Virus record (IMG/VR): IMGVR_UViG_3300048104_000707
Span: 1-27,011 of that record
Source of the DNA: a virus
Strand: one strand, 5' to 3'
DNA length: 27,011 bases
Shown: positions 9,737 to 19,355 of the stretch, in pieces
How the letters are laid out: the number at the start of each line of letters is the position of its first letter
How positions within the stretch are numbered: the stretch's first letter is position 1
Notes under the pieces: model-generated
The model's input: only the letters and a program-made list of their open reading frames with translations
What the model was told of the DNA's origin: nothing
Database searches by the model: none
Translations under genes and position numbers: made by a program

Positions 9737-12450
9737 CCTTGGTTGTATGTTTGGGTAGCCGACCTACTGTCTATTCCACTTACCTCAAAGGTGCGCCCAA
9801 CTATCTTAACGGGATTATTAACAACCACCGGTGATTCGGTCGAGAAAAACTCCTCCTGCCTTTCTATGTACCCATCCTCTCCAAATACTTCATCCGAGTA
9901 CTCAAGATCGGAGGTGACAATTATTTCATCCCTTATGTACGGAGCCCGCACATACATGGGTATCATATTCTCGTCCACTAAGTTATTAAGCTCTACATAA
10001 TCACGCTCCTTACCATCAACCACTTCCATGGTTTCTACTTGCTCAGTGCCTTGGGGTGCGGATGATGTACTAATCTTAACCCTTATCGGAGTAGTGCCAT
10101 ACTTACTAGATAGCTCAAGCTGATAAGACCTCACCTCTTTATCTGAAAAGGAATCACCAAAATCTATTAAGCCACTCTTCATGCGCGACTCATATCCAAA
10201 CCCTAGCCTGTTATAAATTCTGTACGACTCTCGCTCGCCCACCTTCGGAGGGCCATATCCGTATCGAACCAAGACCCCTCCGTACTTATAGTCATCCCTA
10301 TACTGAGTGCCTGGGTAAATAAATTCCCCTTCATTTGCCTGGTGTATTCCCATGATAAACCAAGCTTCCTCTGGACCCACCCTATTGTGCTTTGGTCGCC
10401 TAATGTAGGATGATGCAGTGAAAGATGCATCTATGGTTGAGAGCGTATTACTAATGTAATCATAGGCAATCGTGCCCCAAGCTAGTTTCGGTTGAGGCTG
10501 GGATGTTACATTTAATCCCCAGTACTCTTGATCTCCGGACACTTTCTTATCATCAGCGTACAACCCAAATCCGTTGGCGTATTCAAAGTTGGAATCGGAA
10601 TATATAATTTCTCCCGATTGGTCAACATACTCGCCTTTGCCGTTTTTTAATAAGCCTAACGGACAATTAATAAAAATCTCACGCGTTATTGGATTATCTA
10701 CCGCATATATATATTCCGATAATTCAGGCGGGACGGACTGCCAAAAAGGTGGACCGATCTCAAACATGCTAATTGGCTTAGGCTCAGTAGATGATCTTGT
10801 TATTGAGTAGATCCCACTATTCCCCATGAAGATATGTTGCTTACCATCCACATCTATAATGGTGTGCCTAAAGTCAGCAACCCTGCCACCTTTATATCTT
10901 GGCTCAATGGCAAACGGTACCTCTTGACTATTAGTTTTTGATATGAAAAAGAATCCTGAATCTCGGTAAACAACAAACTTGTCTGCCAATTCTTTCATTT
11001 TCAATATCCTTGATCCATCTTGCGAAAACTCGCGAAATGCAGCGGGTGACCTTAATTGCTCCGCATAGGGACGAAGAACAACGGTGTAATTACCAGCAGA
11101 CAAGGATAGAGCGGTTTCAGGATTTTGTAACACTAGGTCGTCCTGATTACTATCTACCAATAAGTAGTCAGCTGATAAATTAAAGTACTCATACTCCTGG
11201 TCATCAAATGTTCCATGCAACCCATCGGGTCCATAATCTATGGCATAAAAAGCATTAGGATCTTGGGGGTCTTTTGCATAAGCATCATCAGTTGATGAGC
11301 TATTGCTACCTTGGCTTAAAAAGATTCCACTAACTAATAAAGAGTTAGGCTTTTCATCGACAGATTTAATTGTAGCTATGGGGTCAACCATATTCAATGT
11401 GTACGCTTCATCTCCTTGGAATGTGCCTTCGTTGTAGAATTGATACATACTGCCGGGTGTTCCGACTTGGTAGTTGTAATCAAAAGTAAACTGATACTGC
11501 CCTGTAGCTTTAACGGTTAATGTACCAGGTAATCCACCGGACTCCATGACCACAGAGCTCCCAGCAATGACACCCGAGTTAAATAACTTTGGCTCACCTT
11601 CTGCTGAATACACCATTCGATACTGATACCTTTGCGTTCTTACGATGCCCGATTGATAAAGTATATTTGACTCAAGGGGACCATAGGGATCTGAGCCCTC
11701 AAACAATCGATCATAGCCCGCAACTATTACCGTCAAGTCAGCACAGAACAATCTATCCTGAAACACTCCTATAGTTCCGCAAGACACCACACCATTTTCC
11801 CTCAATCCGTACAGAGGTTCAGCTGCCCCCCACTCGCTTTTATATACAACGGGTAGGTCGACTCCATTATTTATAATGATATGGTTTTGTACATCAACGA
11901 TCTCCCACCGATAAGCACCACCCTCAAATGGATCTAGCAACCTTCCATTCTCATCTAGTTTATCAATGTAACTATTGAAGGTATAAATCGGGTCCCAGTA
12001 GAAGTCTTCTGCTTGCGCTAACCAGTATTCAGTTCCTGTTTCATCTGTTGCGTAAAGTTGTCCAGGAGATAAGTAGTTTTTAGCATAGGTATCTTCGGAT
12101 GTCTTTAGCCTCCAAAGCTTGTTACCCGCAATGACCACCAAAACAGGAGTTCCGTTAGTACCGGGAAACTGATGAATTGCGCGGATGGGGTACTGCGAAT
12201 CGATTGCATCGAAAGTATTAGAGTCTCCGTATGGCTTTAAATTTGTTCCTAATCCAAAAAGCTCCCAACCTTCTCGCCTTAATTCTCCATCGGTCTCCCT
12301 TCTAAAGTTTAACTTCTCGGTGTAATTAGCAGAGGAAGATAAGTAATTAGATTCCTGCGTGATCGGCACATCATCAGATGCGGATCCGATCAATGCACCA
12401 CCCTGTGCGGGGTGAATCGTAATATTCTTATATGGTTTACGCTTTGCCAT
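9733..12450 (-). CDS. Probable tail nozzle / stabilisation protein, 905 aa
   Basis: Residues 35-66 (NYTEKLNFRRETDGELRREG, then WELF) are typical of the start of short-tailed phage nozzle proteins (P22 gp10-like, T7 gp12-like), where the virion asks for a 'reference' strand before a beta-propeller. Residues 100-115, 224-240 (GTIGVFQDRLFCADL) and 485-550 (FVVYRDSGFFFISK, then HTIIDVDGKQHIFMGNSGIY) repeat the propeller-blade style. Three copies of the YA-D...EYW motif lie at residues about 131-143, 401-423 and 630-647. The N-terminal half of the tail tube is thought to be closed by such proteins. The assignment rests on pattern and genomic place, next to the connector and fibres. The start shares its A with the stop of the 1355-residue gene (TAATG). 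Confidence 0.75.
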   Translation of the reverse strand: MAKRKPYKNITIHPAQGGALIGSASDDVPITQESNYLSSSANYTEKLNFRRETDGELRREGWELFGLGTNLKPYGDSNTFDAIDSQYPIRAIHQFPGTNGTPVLVVIAGNKLWRLKTSEDTYAKNYLSPGQLYATDETGTEYWLAQAEDFYWDPIYTFNSYIDKLDENGRLLDPFEGGAYRWEIVDVQNHIIINNGVDLPVVYKSEWGAAEPLYGLRENGVVSCGTIGVFQDRLFCADLTVIVAGYDRLFEGSDPYGPLESNILYQSGIVRTQRYQYRMVYSAEGEPKLFNSGVIAGSSVVMESGGLPGTLTVKATGQYQFTFDYNYQVGTPGSMYQFYNEGTFQGDEAYTLNMVDPIATIKSVDEKPNSLLVSGIFLSQGSNSSSTDDAYAKDPQDPNAFYAIDYGPDGLHGTFDDQEYEYFNLSADYLLVDSNQDDLVLQNPETALSLSAGNYTVVLRPYAEQLRSPAAFREFSQDGSRILKMKELADKFVVYRDSGFFFISKTNSQEVPFAIEPRYKGGRVADFRHTIIDVDGKQHIFMGNSGIYSITRSSTEPKPISMFEIGPPFWQSVPPELSEYIYAVDNPITREIFINCPLGLLKNGKGEYVDQSGEIIYSDSNFEYANGFGLYADDKKVSGDQEYWGLNVTSQPQPKLAWGTIAYDYISNTLSTIDASFTASSYIRRPKHNRVGPEEAWFIMGIHQANEGEFIYPGTQYRDDYKYGGVLVRYGYGPPKVGERESYRIYNRLGFGYESRMKSGLIDFGDSFSDKEVRSYQLELSSKYGTTPIRVKISTSSAPQGTEQVETMEVVDGKERDYVELNNLVDENMIPMYVRAPYIRDEIIVTSDLEYSDEVFGEDGYIERQEEFFSTESPVVVNNPVKIVGRTFEVSGIDSRSATQTYNQG

Positions 12451-15400
12451 TATGCTGAGTATGGTTCAAGTACTGGGGTTATGGAAATGCTTGGATCAAA
12501 ATATAATGACTTCGTACCCATTCCGCTCCAGTTTAAGAAACCAATACTAAACCACTTGCATGTGCTAGATACTGTGAATGTATACTCGTAAGTAGTTAAT
12601 GTACTTGCGATTGATGAATTAGACCTGAGCCATGACATTCTTGTGTCCTCAACTACCGAACTTTCTGAGCTAGATGCACTATGGGATATTGCATACTTAC
12701 CTTCAGCTAAGTTTGAGTCGTATTGAAATAATCCAATATAAAATCCATCGGAGTCATAGGAGGAGGATTTAGCCCTAAGCGATACTTTATATTTACGCAC
12801 ATTAGTATGAGTGCGAAATGCTTTATATGTTGCCCCGATGCTTGCGTCAGAAGAATACAATCTAGCTAGTCTAGTGCTTGAGCTATAGGTGAGTACACTT
12901 GGTGAAGGATTTCCATAAGAAGCATACCAATCATTGAAGTCAATGAATTGACTTGTCAACTTGCCATCCATTTCAGACTCAGTGTAGTACCTGTCGTCAT
13001 GGGTGTGTGTTGTTGGCGTTCTTGCATTGGATAACCTAGAGTCATTACCTTTGCATACCGTGGTTGATGATGTTCCAGTAGGTATTCTAGCTATACCAAG
13101 AGTTCCGCTTGTTATATTGGAGGCACTATGGTTATGAGAGGATGAAGCATAAGAGCCCGCTACTTGAGCTCCAATATTTGACCTAGCTTGCGTCTTCTCA
13201 GTGGAGCTTAAGGACTGCGATGCATCAAACCTTACCCGCTTTCCAAGTGCAGTAGTAATAGTGGTTGAGAAATTTGCGTCATCTCCAAGCGCGGAAGCTA
13301 ATTCATCCAATGTATTAAGGGTAGCTGGCGCCGAGTCCACGAGTGCAGATATTGCTGCATCTACATCCTTTATCGGAAACGATGCGCCATTCCCTGTTCC
13401 GTTATGAGCGATCCACTTATCCTCAACTACGTCATATATAATAGATGGATTGTCAGCTAACCCAATATCTACAGTCAGACCCCTAGATACAGTTGAGGAT
13501 GACTCAAGCTCCCAATATTCTTGATCGCCCGCTACACTTGGATCATCTGCGTAAAGTTGTCCTACTTCGTTATACTCCTGGTATGCGTATCCACTGTCGG
13601 CACCACCTGTTGTTCCGTCCAAAGTTAATCCACTTTGGATAATGGTATCACCTTCATTTACTATGGTGTCACCCTCATTGGTGATATTATTTACTACCGC
13701 ACCAATTGTAACTACATCACTACCATTATACGCAACCCAGTCACCTGCCGATGGATCAAATCTAATGTATGGCATGTCATTCGTGCCATCATCTACTGAA
13801 ATACCTGTGGGCACTGCGGCATTATTGTATCTACCCTCAATTACTATATCAGTAGCACCAGCAACTCCCGAGGTCATAGCAACCCTAGTTTTAAGTGCAT
13901 ACGAGTTTAGTAGATTATTGGTTTCGGTTTTTGTGTACCCTGTCCCCGTTAATGCGTACCTGGAATTTGATTCAGACTTGGTGTAGGAGCTATCAAATGG
14001 CTCATATCGGCTATCTGATTCCGTCTTACTGTAAGAGTCTTTTAACTCATAAGAAACACCACCTCCATTACTAAATCCCCACTTAGATTCTTGTGTGTCG
14101 TACCTTAAGAATGGATTATTTGCTCCATCCCCAAGATTGATTACTAGACCCGTACTGCTTGTAGCTGACACTTGCGTAGACCAGTATTCAGCTTGTACAT
14201 CATCCGCAGTGCCTTCAGTTTCGTCAGGGCCGTAATCTATTGCGTAAAAACCCGCACCTTGCTCAAAAGCGTAACCTGATTGAGCTCCACCAGTTGTGCC
14301 ATCAAGAACTAAATCGGTACCTGTCTCACCGCTACTTCCATCTCCACCTCCAGCTCCCGTGCCTCCTAACCCATCAAGGTCAGTTTTAAGTGCATACACA
14401 GAAAGGTCTTCTATGAATGCTAAACTTCTTGTGGTTGCATCCTGTTGGAGGGTAAGTCGAGTCAATGACCCATAACTTGCCTTAAGTTTAACGCTTTCAG
14501 GTACAGAAGTTATAGTACTTCCGGCCCCTGCAAATTTATGGGCCTCCCAGAAGTCTATCTCGTGCGTATCAATTTCCTCGAGGGATGCTTCGTCTGTGGA
14601 TATATTCTCGGATACAAGACTTGGAGCGTACAGATACTTAGACCCATCTATATTTGTTTTTACCTCAAATACATTAGATACCTTTATCTCGGTAGCCTCA
14701 AGAGTTCCGCTAACAATTGTATCACCCTGGATATTAAAATCTCCAGTCGAGGAATAAAGGTTTTCATTAATTGTGGTACTGCCCGTAGATGTGAAATTGC
14801 TGACATTTGTATCACCCGCAATATTTACATCTCCATCTTCAGTAACCTCAAATATAGTGTCACCTTCGTTGGTTACATTTAATGACTTATTAATCGTGGT
14901 AGCACCAGCAATTGTGGTGTCACCTTCTTCGGTAACCTTAAATACGGTATCTCCCTCATTCTTTACGAATAGCTTTTGCTCAATCGTCGTATCACCCTCA
15001 ATGACGGTATTATCCTGAATGGTAACAATCTCGGTGCTAGATGATATATTTTCATTAACAATTGTATCACCTTCAATTGTTACATTCTCAACTATGGTAG
15101 ATGTTAAATGTACATCCCCTTCCTCGGTGAGATTTATTACATTATCTCCTGCCTGATTCGTAATATTAAAGTTTTCGGTGACATTTATATTCGTCACCTG
15201 AGGAAGCTCTACCTCATTTACTTCAATAATTTCACCAACTTCTGTTGCTATGCCCGCATCTACATCATCCTGCGTAGCTTCCCTTGAAATATAAACAGGC
15301 AGAAAGGGTATCTTTGCCCATGATGTTGATCCTGTCTTAAAGTAAAGATTACTTGAGTCGTACGCAAAATCACCTATAGCACCAGCAGAGTCACTATTAT

Positions 15401-16517
15401 CTAGTGGAGTAAAGGCATACCTAAGTGAGTCTATATAAAACTGAGTCCTGGTATCTGCCTCTGCTTTTGCATAAACATCAAAGAATGTAAGATCTATTCC
15501 GTGCGGATTAACCTCATTGAGGTGCTGATCTAGTAATACTTGTGGATTCAAGTTAGGTACATCACCTAATCCTAAATCTGACTTTGTAGTTCCATGTGGA
15601 TTACTTTGCCCCTTGTGTGATGTTAAGTCCGCTTGTACTCCATCTATCTCAAGTTGCGTTACTCCACCAGCTAGTGAAACTATTTCAGATGGTGTTAAGT
15701 TCTCGACTTTACTAAGTCCAACTTGTGCTTTTGTAACACTATGAGGGTTGTTGGTCAGATCGCTATGGTCTGCAACTAAAAGGTTTGTCTTTGCTTGTAT
15801 CTCAGAGCCCAGGTCTGTTATGTCGGCCGCTACATGAGTATGGTCGCTTGTGTCGATTCCGGTAATGAGGGTGTCTACTTCAGTCTTATTATATATATCT
15901 GAGTGTACATGAGCTGATGATGCCTTGTCCGCTAACTGCGCCTCAAGTGCATCTATCTCATCATTAAGCGTAGAAATGGAACTATTTACTCCCGATAAGT
16001 CTACTGAGCCACCGCTTGTATCTATTGCACTAATGCTTGCGATTAAACTATCCCGCACGCTATTAAGTTCAGCTATAGAAGCCTTTACATCTAGTGCTGA
16101 CTGCAAGCCAGATACATTTGATATTTCAATTCCCGCAGGAGAGCCCGTGGTATCTATATTATCAACCTGCCCCTGCAGGGCATCTATTTGCGACTGGTAG
16201 TTAGCTAGAACTAACCCATCTAATAAACCATCGGTAGTACTAAATCTAGTGTCTACTTCTGTTTTATTATAGTAGTTAGACGCAAAGTCTGCTTCCTCGC
16301 CCTCTAGTGATGCAACCCGTGATGTAAGAGCAACAATAGAATCATTTAGTACTTTCCCTAAAGATGCCGCTAATGGATCGGTGGTAGATGTAGATGTAAG
16401 GCTAGTTACTATATCCTCCACCAAAAGAGTAGAGTCTATTAGGTTTCCAAAATCTGCCTCATCGGGAGATGCCCCCGTTATGAAGTAACTCTTTAATGTA
16501 AGCCTATCCTGGATCAT
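12450..16517 (-). CDS. Giant repeat-rich tail fibre, 1355 aa
   Basis: Modular fibre. Residues 80-95 and 205-220 have YNKTEVDT motifs; 255-345 have NPH-type repeats (NPHSVTKAQVGLSKVENLT, NPHGTTKSDLGLGDVPNLN); 465-600 is a block of EGDTxI/V repeats; 828-870 has three YxKxExxxRY-like units. Three related beta units lie at about 735-820, 882-934 and 964-1045, each ending in NPxxxYDxxxxKWxxxNG or a variant; units one and three hold an inserted YA-D...EYW motif. Residues 1052-1116 (DAAISALVDSAPATLNTLDE, then SLSSTEKTQARSNIGA) are a shaft phrase common in phage fibres. Residues 1190-1355 are a probable jelly-roll carbohydrate-binding tip. The stop is TAATG-coupled to the nozzle-like gene, and the start overlaps the connector-like gene as ATGA. 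Confidence 0.9.
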   Translation of the reverse strand: MIQDRLTLKSYFITGASPDEADFGNLIDSTLLVEDIVTSLTSTSTTDPLAASLGKVLNDSIVALTSRVASLEGEEADFASNYYNKTEVDTRFSTTDGLLDGLVLANYQSQIDALQGQVDNIDTTGSPAGIEISNVSGLQSALDVKASIAELNSVRDSLIASISAIDTSGGSVDLSGVNSSISTLNDEIDALEAQLADKASSAHVHSDIYNKTEVDTLITGIDTSDHTHVAADITDLGSEIQAKTNLLVADHSDLTNNPHSVTKAQVGLSKVENLTPSEIVSLAGGVTQLEIDGVQADLTSHKGQSNPHGTTKSDLGLGDVPNLNPQVLLDQHLNEVNPHGIDLTFFDVYAKAEADTRTQFYIDSLRYAFTPLDNSDSAGAIGDFAYDSSNLYFKTGSTSWAKIPFLPVYISREATQDDVDAGIATEVGEIIEVNEVELPQVTNINVTENFNITNQAGDNVINLTEEGDVHLTSTIVENVTIEGDTIVNENISSSTEIVTIQDNTVIEGDTTIEQKLFVKNEGDTVFKVTEEGDTTIAGATTINKSLNVTNEGDTIFEVTEDGDVNIAGDTNVSNFTSTGSTTINENLYSSTGDFNIQGDTIVSGTLEATEIKVSNVFEVKTNIDGSKYLYAPSLVSENISTDEASLEEIDTHEIDFWEAHKFAGAGSTITSVPESVKLKASYGSLTRLTLQQDATTRSLAFIEDLSVYALKTDLDGLGGTGAGGGDGSSGETGTDLVLDGTTGGAQSGYAFEQGAGFYAIDYGPDETEGTADDVQAEYWSTQVSATSSTGLVINLGDGANNPFLRYDTQESKWGFSNGGGVSYELKDSYSKTESDSRYEPFDSSYTKSESNSRYALTGTGYTKTETNNLLNSYALKTRVAMTSGVAGATDIVIEGRYNNAAVPTGISVDDGTNDMPYIRFDPSAGDWVAYNGSDVVTIGAVVNNITNEGDTIVNEGDTIIQSGLTLDGTTGGADSGYAYQEYNEVGQLYADDPSVAGDQEYWELESSSTVSRGLTVDIGLADNPSIIYDVVEDKWIAHNGTGNGASFPIKDVDAAISALVDSAPATLNTLDELASALGDDANFSTTITTALGKRVRFDASQSLSSTEKTQARSNIGAQVAGSYASSSHNHSASNITSGTLGIARIPTGTSSTTVCKGNDSRLSNARTPTTHTHDDRYYTESEMDGKLTSQFIDFNDWYASYGNPSPSVLTYSSSTRLARLYSSDASIGATYKAFRTHTNVRKYKVSLRAKSSSYDSDGFYIGLFQYDSNLAEGKYAISHSASSSESSVVEDTRMSWLRSNSSIASTLTTYEYTFTVSSTCKWFSIGFLNWSGMGTKSLYFDPSISITPVLEPYSA
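14718..15125 (-). repeat. EGDT repeat block in the giant fibre gene
   Basis: Residues about 465-600 hold at least eight copies of a short [EQAD]GDT/V-x-[IVF] phrase (for example IEGDTIVNE, NEGDTVFKV, EEGDTTIAG, NEGDTIFEV), spaced irregularly. A short second cluster lies at residues about 948-960. The pattern suits a repetitive beta-solenoid or triple-stranded shaft. Confidence 0.75.
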
Positions 16518-17284
16518 CCTACTACAAATCCTCCTCCGCCAACGCCTGTGCTATTGGCGATCTGCTCTATCGACGATGTTTGATATTCTTTTCGGTTGAT
16601 AAATATTTGCGCCCTCTCCTTTTGATACATACCTAAGTATGCCTGATACTGCTGAAGGTCATTATCTACATCTCGCGCAAGGTGTGCTTTTACATACCCC
16701 GCTGATGCTTTTGCCTCCATCTCATCAAATATAACAGGTGTATTCTTTTCGTCATCCGTTGCTCTGTATATAGGTGTTGGGCGCAATTCTCCTTCAAAAT
16801 AGATATACATTGCCTCGTCCTCACGAAGCATGGGTGCAGTCCAAAACTTATTTTCCCCAAATGTTATACGACCAGGTATAGTAGATGTTCTTTCAGCTAT
16901 TCCTCCGTCGATAAGGGAGAATCTTGATTCCCATGGAATTGAGTTCGGGTAGTAATATCGAGATATGTCCTGACCATTATCGCTCGTTGCAACTCTCCGT
17001 ACAACCACTTGCTTAACCCGTACATTTGATATAGCAAAGTCACCCTTATGTACATTAAGATCCTCTGCATTTACCTCACTTAGGTCTTCAGGGTTAGGTT
17101 CTACTAATGAGCTTTCGGAGTAGAACTTGTATTGGTTCTGCCTAATTGCAGGGACATACCTTTGCATGTCTACAACTGAAGCAACAATAAGGGAATCAAT
17201 ATTTTCCTGAACTCCTCTGCCCTTTCTTTCGCTGTCCACAATAAGGAAGACGCGCACTTGATCGTTAAATTCCTGCCAATTCAT
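16514..17284 (-). CDS. Probable head-tail connector / tail tube protein, 256 aa
   Basis: Soluble alpha/beta protein: residues 1-60 are helical (MNWQEFNDQVRVFLIVDSER...VQENIDSLIVASVVDMQRYV), a middle part of strands has conserved-looking turns (ISNVRVKQVVVRRV, SIPWESRFSLIDGG), and residues 185-230 are helical again (EMEAKASAGYVKAHLARDVD). This architecture and its place just before the nozzle-like gene (with the giant fibre between) resemble tail tubular A or adaptor proteins of short-tailed phages, which bridge portal and nozzle. I cannot point to a diagnostic motif. The start has a strong GGAGGT six bases upstream and overlaps the upstream stop (ATGA). The C-terminal GGGGFVV is coded across the overlap with the fibre gene. 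Confidence 0.6.
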   Translation of the reverse strand: MNWQEFNDQVRVFLIVDSERKGRGVQENIDSLIVASVVDMQRYVPAIRQNQYKFYSESSLVEPNPEDLSEVNAEDLNVHKGDFAISNVRVKQVVVRRVATSDNGQDISRYYYPNSIPWESRFSLIDGGIAERTSTIPGRITFGENKFWTAPMLREDEAMYIYFEGELRPTPIYRATDDEKNTPVIFDEMEAKASAGYVKAHLARDVDNDLQQYQAYLGMYQKERAQIFINRKEYQTSSIEQIANSTGVGGGGFVVG

Positions 17285-17745
17285 CGTCTACCTCCGGGTG
17301 TGAAATAAAATCCTATAATTAGAGGCAATACTACTGTTGCTTCAAAGAGTGCAATGTGTCCCGTTGTAACGACCAGAGCGGTTTGCTCAGCTGGAAAACT
17401 GATGAGCCCGAAAAGAAACTCTCGCTTACCTTCTCCTGTGATGTTTGTTGTACTGACGAGTGGAACGCTGGGATAAATTGTTGTGATGCATGTGATGAAC
17501 GAGAGCGTGCACATTCCGATGAGCGCGAGCATCCTGCGTGTAGCCCTAGTGAAAGCGCCACTAGGACCGCTATTAAGTGCCTCTTGAAATTTAATTGCTT
17601 GTTCATTGTTTCTTGCCTCCCTTGCCATCTCCATCTCAAACTTTTGAGCACGAGCATCCGTGATGGCACCGAATACACCTTTAAGGATACTGCCCATTGC
17701 GGCAGACCCTCCGCCAGTTAAAAATAATGTAAGTAATTCAAACAT
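17281..17745 (-). CDS. Membrane protein, three-TM holin-like, 154 aa
   Basis: Three hydrophobic parts: residues 3-28 (amphipathic, glycine-rich, LLTLFLTGGGSAAMGSILKG), about 72-92 (LALIGMCTLSFITCITTIY) and 121-148 (TALVVTTGHIALFEATVVLP, then LIIGFYF). A charged helix (30-58) separates the first two, and the protein ends in GGRR. The glycine-rich start, charged helix, R-x-x-R-R before the second segment and the closing GFYF-xx-GR resemble the 'holin of 3 TMs' family (Pfam GTA_holin_3TM), which opens the inner membrane at lysis. No endolysin lies in the window, so the lysis role stays tentative; another membrane-bound virion role is possible. The start shares its A with the preceding stop (TGATG), and the stop overlaps the connector-like gene. 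Confidence 0.6.
   Translation of the reverse strand: MFELLTLFLTGGGSAAMGSILKGVFGAITDARAQKFEMEMAREARNNEQAIKFQEALNSGPSGAFTRATRRMLALIGMCTLSFITCITTIYPSVPLVSTTNITGEGKREFLFGLISFPAEQTALVVTTGHIALFEATVVLPLIIGFYFTPGGRR
17331..17606 (-). CDS. Possible embedded secreted/lipoprotein frame (spanin-like candidate), 91 aa
   Basis: Same-strand frame entirely inside the holin-like gene. It begins MNKQLNFKRHLIAVLVALSL, then GLHAGCSRSSE: a basic n-region, a 12-residue hydrophobic core and a cysteine at residue 26 in an LHAGC setting. The -3 histidine departs from the usual lipobox, so cleavage by signal peptidase I after LHA is an alternative. AGGGAGG lies about nine bases before the ATG. Outer spanins are commonly encoded inside other lysis genes, which is the reason to list it. 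The rest is Ser-rich without the proline richness often seen in Rz1. It may be a chance frame; confidence is low. Confidence 0.25.
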   Translation of the reverse strand: MNKQLNFKRHLIAVLVALSLGLHAGCSRSSECARSRSSHASQQFIPAFHSSVQQTSQEKVSESFFSGSSVFQLSKPLWSLQRDTLHSLKQQ

Positions 17746-19355
17746 CAGTTTAGTACCCTTAGTGCCCTATACCCCGCTCCCCCACTATCTGTGGGACCGA
17801 CTTCTACCTTCTTCCATGAATTATCGACCCACACCTCAAGAGGATTTTGCTTATCTGACCCCACCTTCATAACGCTATACCTAGTGCCATTATTATCAGA
17901 TCCTTTTATTTGATCTCCTTCATGGATAATCACTGCACCTTGAGTTGTCAGGTTAGCATTAGAAATGTCAATACCCTCCTTGAATACGCCACCACCAAGA
18001 CCACCTCCTGTGTTAGGACTTGTATATGCGGTAATCATACTATCTACCGGAACAGTACCCTCGGAGGATGCCACAAAACAATTAACATCTCGTTCTCCGT
18101 TATGCTCACGCATAATCCTACCAATCACGGAGTTCATCTTGGTGTCAAATGATACCGTTTTATTTCCGTAACCATCTTTGTCTGTGTCCTTAAGTCTTAC
18201 CTCGACACCAGACATTGTACCGTAAGCAGACCCAAGATTGGCAGCTTCTCCTTGAAATAGACCTACCTCATTATATCCACCAGGCTCAATTTCATGTAAC
18301 CCACCTACTGCGGTAAAACATTGAGCTGAACCGTTGTCGTATTTTCGTGTAGAAGATTGCACCCCCCAATGTATGGAGCCTGAGTAATCATATACACTTG
18401 TATCAACATACCCTCCCCCACTTACTTCAAAATCATATACCGCACCGGGCTCCATAGTGAAGTTCGCAATATCGGTGTCATGGTGAACCTGAACCACAGT
18501 TGCCGCTTTTGTACCCGCAAAGTTCCAAGGCCAACCGCCTTCTCCGTAAAAAGGAATGTAGCTTGTAGTACACCATTTCCATTGAGAGTCCGTACCTGGC
18601 TGAGACGAAGGGTTACCTACTTCAGCTTTGTAATATAAATAGTGTGTCCCAGAGATCGTACTTCTCGTATCAAGTACTTTTACAACATCACCCTGACTGT
18701 ACGAAGTTCCGCTAGACCAAAGTGGAGCAGTTGCCCTGTAATAAGGATGTGATGAGCCTTTCTGTATCTCAAATCTACCAAGAGGCATATCCACGACATA
18801 GTTTACCTGATCACCTAGTACAAAACTACCGCCACTACCAGTGGAACCGATAGGTGCATATAATGCATCTGACTCTACCTTCGTGTAATAAGCATCAAGT
18901 GCTGCACTAAAAACAACATCATTAACCGTGGAGGCTAAGGCAAAATCATCAAGTGAAGAGGCTAAGGCATAGTCATTCAGGTCGTTCTTTGCGGCAAAAT
19001 TCGCATTAACCTCGGTCTTCGTGTAGGCATCTATTTCGTCTGATTTCTTAAGATAGGTTGTATCTGCTACGGCGATAGTAAGGTAATCGTTAAACTTGGC
19101 ATCAAGAGTAGAGTAATTGGACTGTATATTTTCATTTATAACAGCAATCTCGGCACCATAGTCTACATCTGCCCTGACGACTTCAATGTCATCGACTAAT
19201 GAATTTACAGCGTACCTAAGGAGCTCAAAGTTGTTATCAAACTCAGTCCACGACATAGGGTCATCCTTGGCTGTACGTAAAGTAATATACTTTTGGTTTG
19301 TCGGAATATCGTTGGCAGAATAACCGGGGTAATTTGATGTAAGTTTAGTAGTCAT
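17745..19355 (-). CDS. Tail fibre with carbohydrate-binding-like segment, 536 aa
   Basis: Residues 20-60 (YITLRTAKDDPMSWTEFDNN, then FELLRYAVNSLVDD) resemble the N-terminus of the 712-residue fibre, suggesting a common docking domain. Residues 105-170 contain fibre-type units (DAYTKTEVNANF, YYTKVESDALYAPIG). Residues 211-262 (PLWSSGTSYSQGDVVKVLD, then YYKAEVGNPSSQPGTDSQWK) follow the pattern of small chitin/cellulose-binding CBM5/12 modules (W-x-x-G-x-x-Y-x-x-G-D-x-V...Y-x-A). Residues 290-440 are a beta-rich knob with several tryptophans and cysteines, perhaps the receptor-binding head. The C-terminal 40 residues form a further small strand unit. The start lies one base after the stop of the 250-residue gene. 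Confidence 0.85.
   Translation of the reverse strand: MTTKLTSNYPGYSANDIPTNQKYITLRTAKDDPMSWTEFDNNFELLRYAVNSLVDDIEVVRADVDYGAEIAVINENIQSNYSTLDAKFNDYLTIAVADTTYLKKSDEIDAYTKTEVNANFAAKNDLNDYALASSLDDFALASTVNDVVFSAALDAYYTKVESDALYAPIGSTGSGGSFVLGDQVNYVVDMPLGRFEIQKGSSHPYYRATAPLWSSGTSYSQGDVVKVLDTRSTISGTHYLYYKAEVGNPSSQPGTDSQWKWCTTSYIPFYGEGGWPWNFAGTKAATVVQVHHDTDIANFTMEPGAVYDFEVSGGGYVDTSVYDYSGSIHWGVQSSTRKYDNGSAQCFTAVGGLHEIEPGGYNEVGLFQGEAANLGSAYGTMSGVEVRLKDTDKDGYGNKTVSFDTKMNSVIGRIMREHNGERDVNCFVASSEGTVPVDSMITAYTSPNTGGGLGGGVFKEGIDISNANLTTQGAVIIHEGDQIKGSDNNGTRYSVMKVGSDKQNPLEVWVDNSWKKVEVGPTDSGGAGYRALRVLN

Follow-up and report, generated by a model that had tools for sequence, protein, structure and literature searches.

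What does it mean that an uncultured phage carries the same short, tyrosine-rich peptide several times over in two adjacent proteins of its tail? Short-tailed phages must link the sensing of a receptor by their fibres to nozzle opening, through contacts that are known for a minority of lineages. The window, i.e., the whole stretch of DNA that was analysed, is a virus record of 27,011 bases whose minus strand bears a cluster of structural genes. In this cluster the gene of the nozzle protein P0001 (9733-12450, minus strand, 905 aa) adjoins that of the long tail fibre P0002 (12450-16517, minus strand, 1355 aa), with the fibre gene directly upstream. A first-pass annotation had noticed a YA-D...D-x-EYW motif that recurs five times in the two products taken together, and had considered a metal-binding or a protein-docking loop. 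We have sought this element in the records of 13 related viruses (6-81 kb), in 2.9 million contigs of viral origin and in some 85,000 genomes.

The two tail proteins

The earlier label "nozzle-like" for the 905-aa protein was borne out. P0001 matches PHROG 3287 (E 7.6e-9), as do all 14 of its aligned relatives, several of which give a second colinear match in their N-terminal half; since nozzle gp17 of phage SU10 falls in the same family (8e-116), the assignment is supported. The alignment of SU10- and LUZ24-type nozzles is colinear with the P0001 family at about residues 170-240 and 470-597 (hhalign E 8e-4 for 470-597), while positions of about 163-197 of the SU10-type profile align to P0001 residues 240-470. 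The gap between the colinear matches indicates that P0001 has about 200 extra residues near 245-465 (11056-11718, minus strand, limits approximate), a region absent from SU10/LUZ24-type nozzles. AlphaFold gave a poor overall model for P0001 (mean pLDDT 38), of which residues 80-217 match propeller blades at Z 7-8. When this part was compared with VIA-align, the hub or nozzle proteins of phages Pa223 (9nwi), VP1 (8zkk) and P22 (8u10) were among the best matches, with borderline Z scores of 8.1, 7.6 and 7.0 over 69-84 aligned residues; their chains measure 471-521 aa against 905 aa for P0001. No sequence similarity was obtained by hhalign of P0001 against the single sequences of T7 gp12 and P22 gp10, and Foldseek searches with the models of the nozzle and the fibre module returned nothing significant. 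A portal fragment, P0018 (25676-27010, minus strand), matches SU10_portal weakly (Pfam PF23899, E 0.0016, below the cut-off), and so does the portal of the related record L036 (E 8.5e-5, likewise under the Pfam cut-off). The weak portal match is consistent with the tail type read from nozzle and fibre, and these matches suggest that the lineage, which has no cultured members, makes a virion distantly like that of SU10.

The second protein deserves its name of giant fibre: it matches tail and tail-fibre families of PHROGs, and its residues 1053-1170 match the tail collar fibre of PDB entry 9d93 (E 2e-11). The shaft contains a repeated domain of the pattern LTLDG...GLTVDxG..NPSIxYD....W..xNG. 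Two modules delimited by alignment, at 14025-14348 and 13356-13664 (minus strand), enclose the element, and a further copy of the domain at 13719-13808 (minus strand; TGISVDDGTNDMPYIRFDPSAGDWVAYNGS), recognised by a profile of the flanks (E 1.6e-4), has no element upstream. In the 108-residue model of the first module (pLDDT 65), the YA..xxYA part with its AFEQ/GFYA strands is a hairpin.

Within the fibre gene, stretches of 19-37 nt are directly repeated (14645-15090, minus strand) and code for the recurrent 'EGDT' units of the shaft. The fibre of L015 (6265-10005, plus strand) has many copies of a repeat of about 40 aa with 'ATQEDVDxGxATSVGETI' at its core, that of L007 a few and that of the window one; by this comparison the repeat is one that expands. 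The fibre-like protein P0005 (17745-19355, minus strand) has kept its N-terminus and last 41 residues in L005 and L010 around an unrelated middle, a case of an exchanged middle between fixed ends. Downstream of the nozzle gene, the small protein P0010 (8761-9342, minus strand) combines the N-terminal domain of a major tropism determinant (PF18454) with a divergent InlB B-repeat (PF18998), and is likely a receptor-binding accessory.

The element, its copies and its ancestry

One element is present in five copies, three in the nozzle and two in the fibre. The motif had been placed at 12022-12060, 11182-11250 and 10510-10563 in the nozzle gene, which translate on the minus strand to QLYATDETGTEYW, FYAIDYGPDGLHGTFDDQEYEYF and LYADDKKVSGDQEYWGLN, and at 14181-14249 and 13509-13556 in the fibre gene, which translate likewise to FYAIDYGPDETEGTADDVQAEYW and LYADDPSVAGDQEYWE. 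All five were found at these positions to within 3 bases, the last being one codon off (QLYADDPSVAGDQEYW corresponds to 13512-13559). The half of the motif that had been described is real, but a strict D-x-E-Y-W occurs in two of the five copies only, and the element is longer: a second YA precedes it by 7-12 residues in every copy (TYAKNYLSPGQLYATD.., AYAKDPQDPNAFYAID.., EYANGFGLYADD.., GYAFEQGAGFYAID.. and GYAYQEYNEVGQLYADD..). Aligned with the copies of related contigs, the full element reads [GTAE]-YA-x(4-14)-[LFK]Y[AS]xD-(acidic loop)-[ED]Y[WF], and spans about 22-41 residues. Its loop has two common forms, a long one (DYGxDxxxGTxDD) and a short one (DPxxxGDQ), each of which is found in the nozzle as well as in the fibre. 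All on the minus strand, the long form is carried by copy 2 at nozzle site 2 (11182-11283, AYAKDPQDPNAFYAIDYGPDGLHGTFDDQEYEYF, aa 390-423) and by fibre copy 4 (14181-14276, GYAFEQGAGFYAIDYGPDETEGTADDVQAEYW, aa 748-779), and the short form by copy 3 at nozzle site 3 (10519-10584, EYANGFGLYADDKKVSGDQEYW, aa 623-644) and by fibre copy 5 (13512-13592, GYAYQEYNEVGQLYADDPSVAGDQEYW, aa 976-1002). Copy 1 at nozzle site 1 (12022-12090, TYAKNYLSPGQLYATDETGTEYW, aa 121-143) is the most divergent, with the loop DETGTE.

The loop forms bear directly on the suggested metal binding. The spacing of acidic residues in the long form, D-Y-G-x-D-x-x-x-G-T-x-D-D, is EF-hand-like, as a calcium-binding loop that stiffens nozzle and fibre would require. 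In a loop of the EF-hand or TSP3 type every copy would be acidic at position 1, at 3 or 5, and at 12; here D1, D5 and D12/13 are present in the long forms only, and neither the short form (DDPxxxGDQ) nor nozzle copy 1 has the spacing, which argues against calcium as a shared function. No Pfam calcium family matched either. Metal binding as the common role was accordingly abandoned, and a calcium loop is very unlikely.

The likeness between the copies clearly exceeds chance. A motif regex gave five matches in the 18 translated proteins of the window against 0.012 in residue shuffles (maximum 1); as it was designed after the copies had been seen, a profile built from other phages is the better test. 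Such a profile of fibre copies retrieved nozzle copy 2 of the window (E 3.1e-6) and, weakly, nozzle copy 3 (E 0.025), along with both fibre copies (E 9.6e-13 for copy 4 and 0.0099 for copy 5). Conversely, a profile of the nozzle copies of other phages retrieved the LYADD copy of the window fibre, copy 5 (E 7.9e-6), and reversed sequences gave no match below 0.38. Against the family profile nozzle copy 2 reached E 1.2e-15, while nozzle copy 1 was matched only by a profile that included its own relatives (E 3.2e-6). The cross-detection with empty reversed controls rules out a low-complexity or chance match, a doubt that had been raised together with the motif. Shared ancestry of the five copies, as one homologous element, is well supported by these comparisons.

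The first-pass annotation was also right in that the peptide, not the DNA, is kept. In the FYAIDYGPD pair six of the nine codons differ synonymously, and in the long-form pair codons differ at 10 of 15 identical residues; at the copies there is no repeated DNA beyond a 34-nt match of 74% identity, nor a palindrome. Retention of the peptide under such codon divergence favours a function. Recent DNA duplication, gene conversion and a palindromic mobile element are ruled out by the same observations. Rickettsia palindromic elements are short in-frame inserts that bring a similar peptide into different proteins and consist of palindromic, repeated DNA, which is lacking at the copies described here.

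The distribution of the element is narrow. Whole-record searches of the 13 relatives located it in nozzle and fibre genes only. Among the viral contigs, DNA patterns of the short and long form hit six and eight stretches, respectively, all of this lineage, and in the genome collection the long-form pattern hit one contig, L026; as these patterns demand exact key residues, diverged relatives may escape such a scan. L026 is binned as 'uncultured archaeon' and carries a matching phage nozzle and fibre. An archaeal origin was rejected because the contig encodes the same two phage proteins, i.e., phage DNA in a cellular bin. In a tblastn search of 50,697 cultured-phage records, nozzle, portal, capsid and module gave no match, whereas T7 gp12 as positive control hit 2,533 records. 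Among the records searched, the element is restricted to two genes of one uncultured phage lineage.

An optional insert in nozzle and fibre

Comparison of the relatives shows the element to be an optional in-frame insert in the fibre shaft domain and in loops of the nozzle, given that domain copies lacking it occur in the same fibres (window fibre, L003, L010, L012) and that close relatives differ by indels at sites 2 and 3. Site 1 is present in every nozzle that covers the position, and its sequence has diverged in the outgroup (L013, L014 and L036). At site 2, which lies within the extra residues of P0001, the long loop is shared by the window group with L005 and L007, and is not seen in L009, L010 and L012. 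Site 3, located right after the strand REIFINCP, is present in the window, L004, L006, L007, L010, L011, L012 and L026, and its whole loop is missing from L003, L008, L005 and L009. In a nozzle tree built without the element sites, L009 groups with L010/L012/L026 (support 0.96), and has probably lost site 3 and the fibre modules.

The presence of the element in the fibre goes along with that at nozzle sites 2 and 3 in the lineages compared. All five lineages with module-bearing fibres have site 2 or site 3 of the nozzle occupied by a full copy, and none of the three with module-free fibres does (Fisher p 0.018 with close relatives collapsed, a statistic that covers few lineages and ignores relatedness). 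The co-occurrence can also be read as one shared loss combined with common descent. Nozzle site 1 is kept in L009, whose fibre has no module. In this phage a fibre stub of 409 aa precedes the nozzle, and a giant open frame of 1985 aa (12664-18618, plus strand), the start of which resembles P0010, follows it; the receptor-binding part may have moved into this frame.

Such gain and loss invites the explanation that the element is a recombinable loop without special function, which recombination has carried from loop to loop among the clustered tail genes, and which persists since it folds well and does no harm. Sites 2 and 3 come and go among relatives, the copies reside in neighbouring genes, and mosaic inserts are a familiar feature of phage tail proteins. 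The codon differences and the lack of a DNA repeat described above imply, however, an old origin of the copies and retention of the peptide, and at site 3 the motif residues of the window and L007 have outlasted the divergence of the intervening loop. We therefore regard a loop that is simply tolerated as unlikely. The insert can also be compared with phage Ig-like domains, folds of about 90 aa that are found in many phages and across unrelated structural proteins. In both cases one module is borne by different virion proteins, but the present element is a hairpin of 22-41 aa in two genes of one lineage.

A candidate contact between fibre and nozzle

We propose as the likeliest reading, with a probability of roughly 40%, that the element is a duplicated contact hairpin, which couples fibre and nozzle or binds both to one partner. 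Its parts would be a beta-hairpin, predicted for YA..xxYA, then an acidic loop of variable form and, at the end, the acidic-aromatic [ED]Y[WF]. Duplicates of it have been inserted in frame into nozzle loops and into the shaft domain that is repeated along the fibre. Exposed at the surface, it would serve as a contact patch, where fibre and nozzle copies meet or both grip one third partner, either in the stowed state of the fibre or during the rearrangement of the tail that precedes or effects DNA delivery. That the element is confined to two adjoining components of the tail points to their contact with each other or with a common partner. The cross-detection of the profiles, the occurrence of both loop forms in both proteins, the insert nature, the co-occurrence in five of five against none of three lineages, the position of the fibre gene and the dock of SU10 also speak for the proposal. 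Fibres normally attach via their N-terminus; as the fibre copies are located at aa 748-1002 of 1355, far from that end, a contact with the nozzle would need a folded-back fibre.

A precedent is found in SU10, whose nozzle has an aromatic dock loop with three Trp that the fibre trimer clamps by its Tyr-Ile-Tyr; after triggering, the nozzle proteins alternate with the fibres, one next to the other (PMC9509320). SU10 and several relatives have a short tail fibre gene in the same slot, directly upstream of the nozzle gene. The pair of SU10 gp17 and short tail fibre gp16 resembles the one studied here in the PHROG 3287 nozzle, the gene order and the insertion of domains or loops into the propeller, a core that is putative for P0001. 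It differs by its single dock loop with three Trp, which is not known to be a constant feature of the whole family, and its Ig-like nozzle domains. The profile alignment to P0001 ends at aa 597, and by eye no Trp triplet follows IDASF. No Ig family matched P0001 by sequence, against several for SU10 gp17, although a diverged Ig fold could escape such a match; PHROG 3287 members of 513-516 aa are too short for Ig-like nozzle domains. In this lineage it is the same hairpin peptide that is repeated in nozzle and fibre. A pseudo-threefold dock, in which the three nozzle copies would serve a fibre trimer, was rejected since the number of nozzle copies varies. It is doubtful, too, that the copies form a lineage-specific homotypic hairpin zipper, in which nozzle and fibre copies would bind each other, clamp the long fibre to the tail and release it upon host contact.

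A serious rival to the contact hairpin is an adhesive surface loop, by which nozzle tip and fibre would bind one host-surface ligand with no mutual contact, comparable to the Ig-like domains distributed over unrelated virion proteins. Both proteins face the host during infection, and Tyr, Trp and Asp are abundant in the element. In addition, we infer that site 1 is situated between the first propeller strands and the match at 170-240, in the interval that is taken up by the Ig-like nozzle domains in SU10 (PMC9509320). Yet the modules are nearly identical between the window and L003 while the C-terminus of the fibre differs, so that they do not behave as the variable host-range part. Moreover, the element matched no binding module known from Pfam, from PHROGs or from the sequences of the PDB, and PDB profile searches gave chance-level matches only, to RCC1 and designed 'Cake' proteins. 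We consider adhesion to a shared host ligand somewhat unlikely.

The sharing of modules and contacts between nozzle and fibre are already known from podovirus tails; what is described here is a genuine, lineage-restricted element common to both proteins. The recurrence of the hairpin in nozzle and fibre suggests, short of proof, that it helps these proteins to work jointly, putatively by docking. If the element is merely a tolerated loop, it offers a modest example of tail mosaicism. A peptide that nozzle and fibre alone have in common marks candidate points of contact between them, and indicates that a small insert, and not just a whole domain, can be reused across the proteins of a phage tail.
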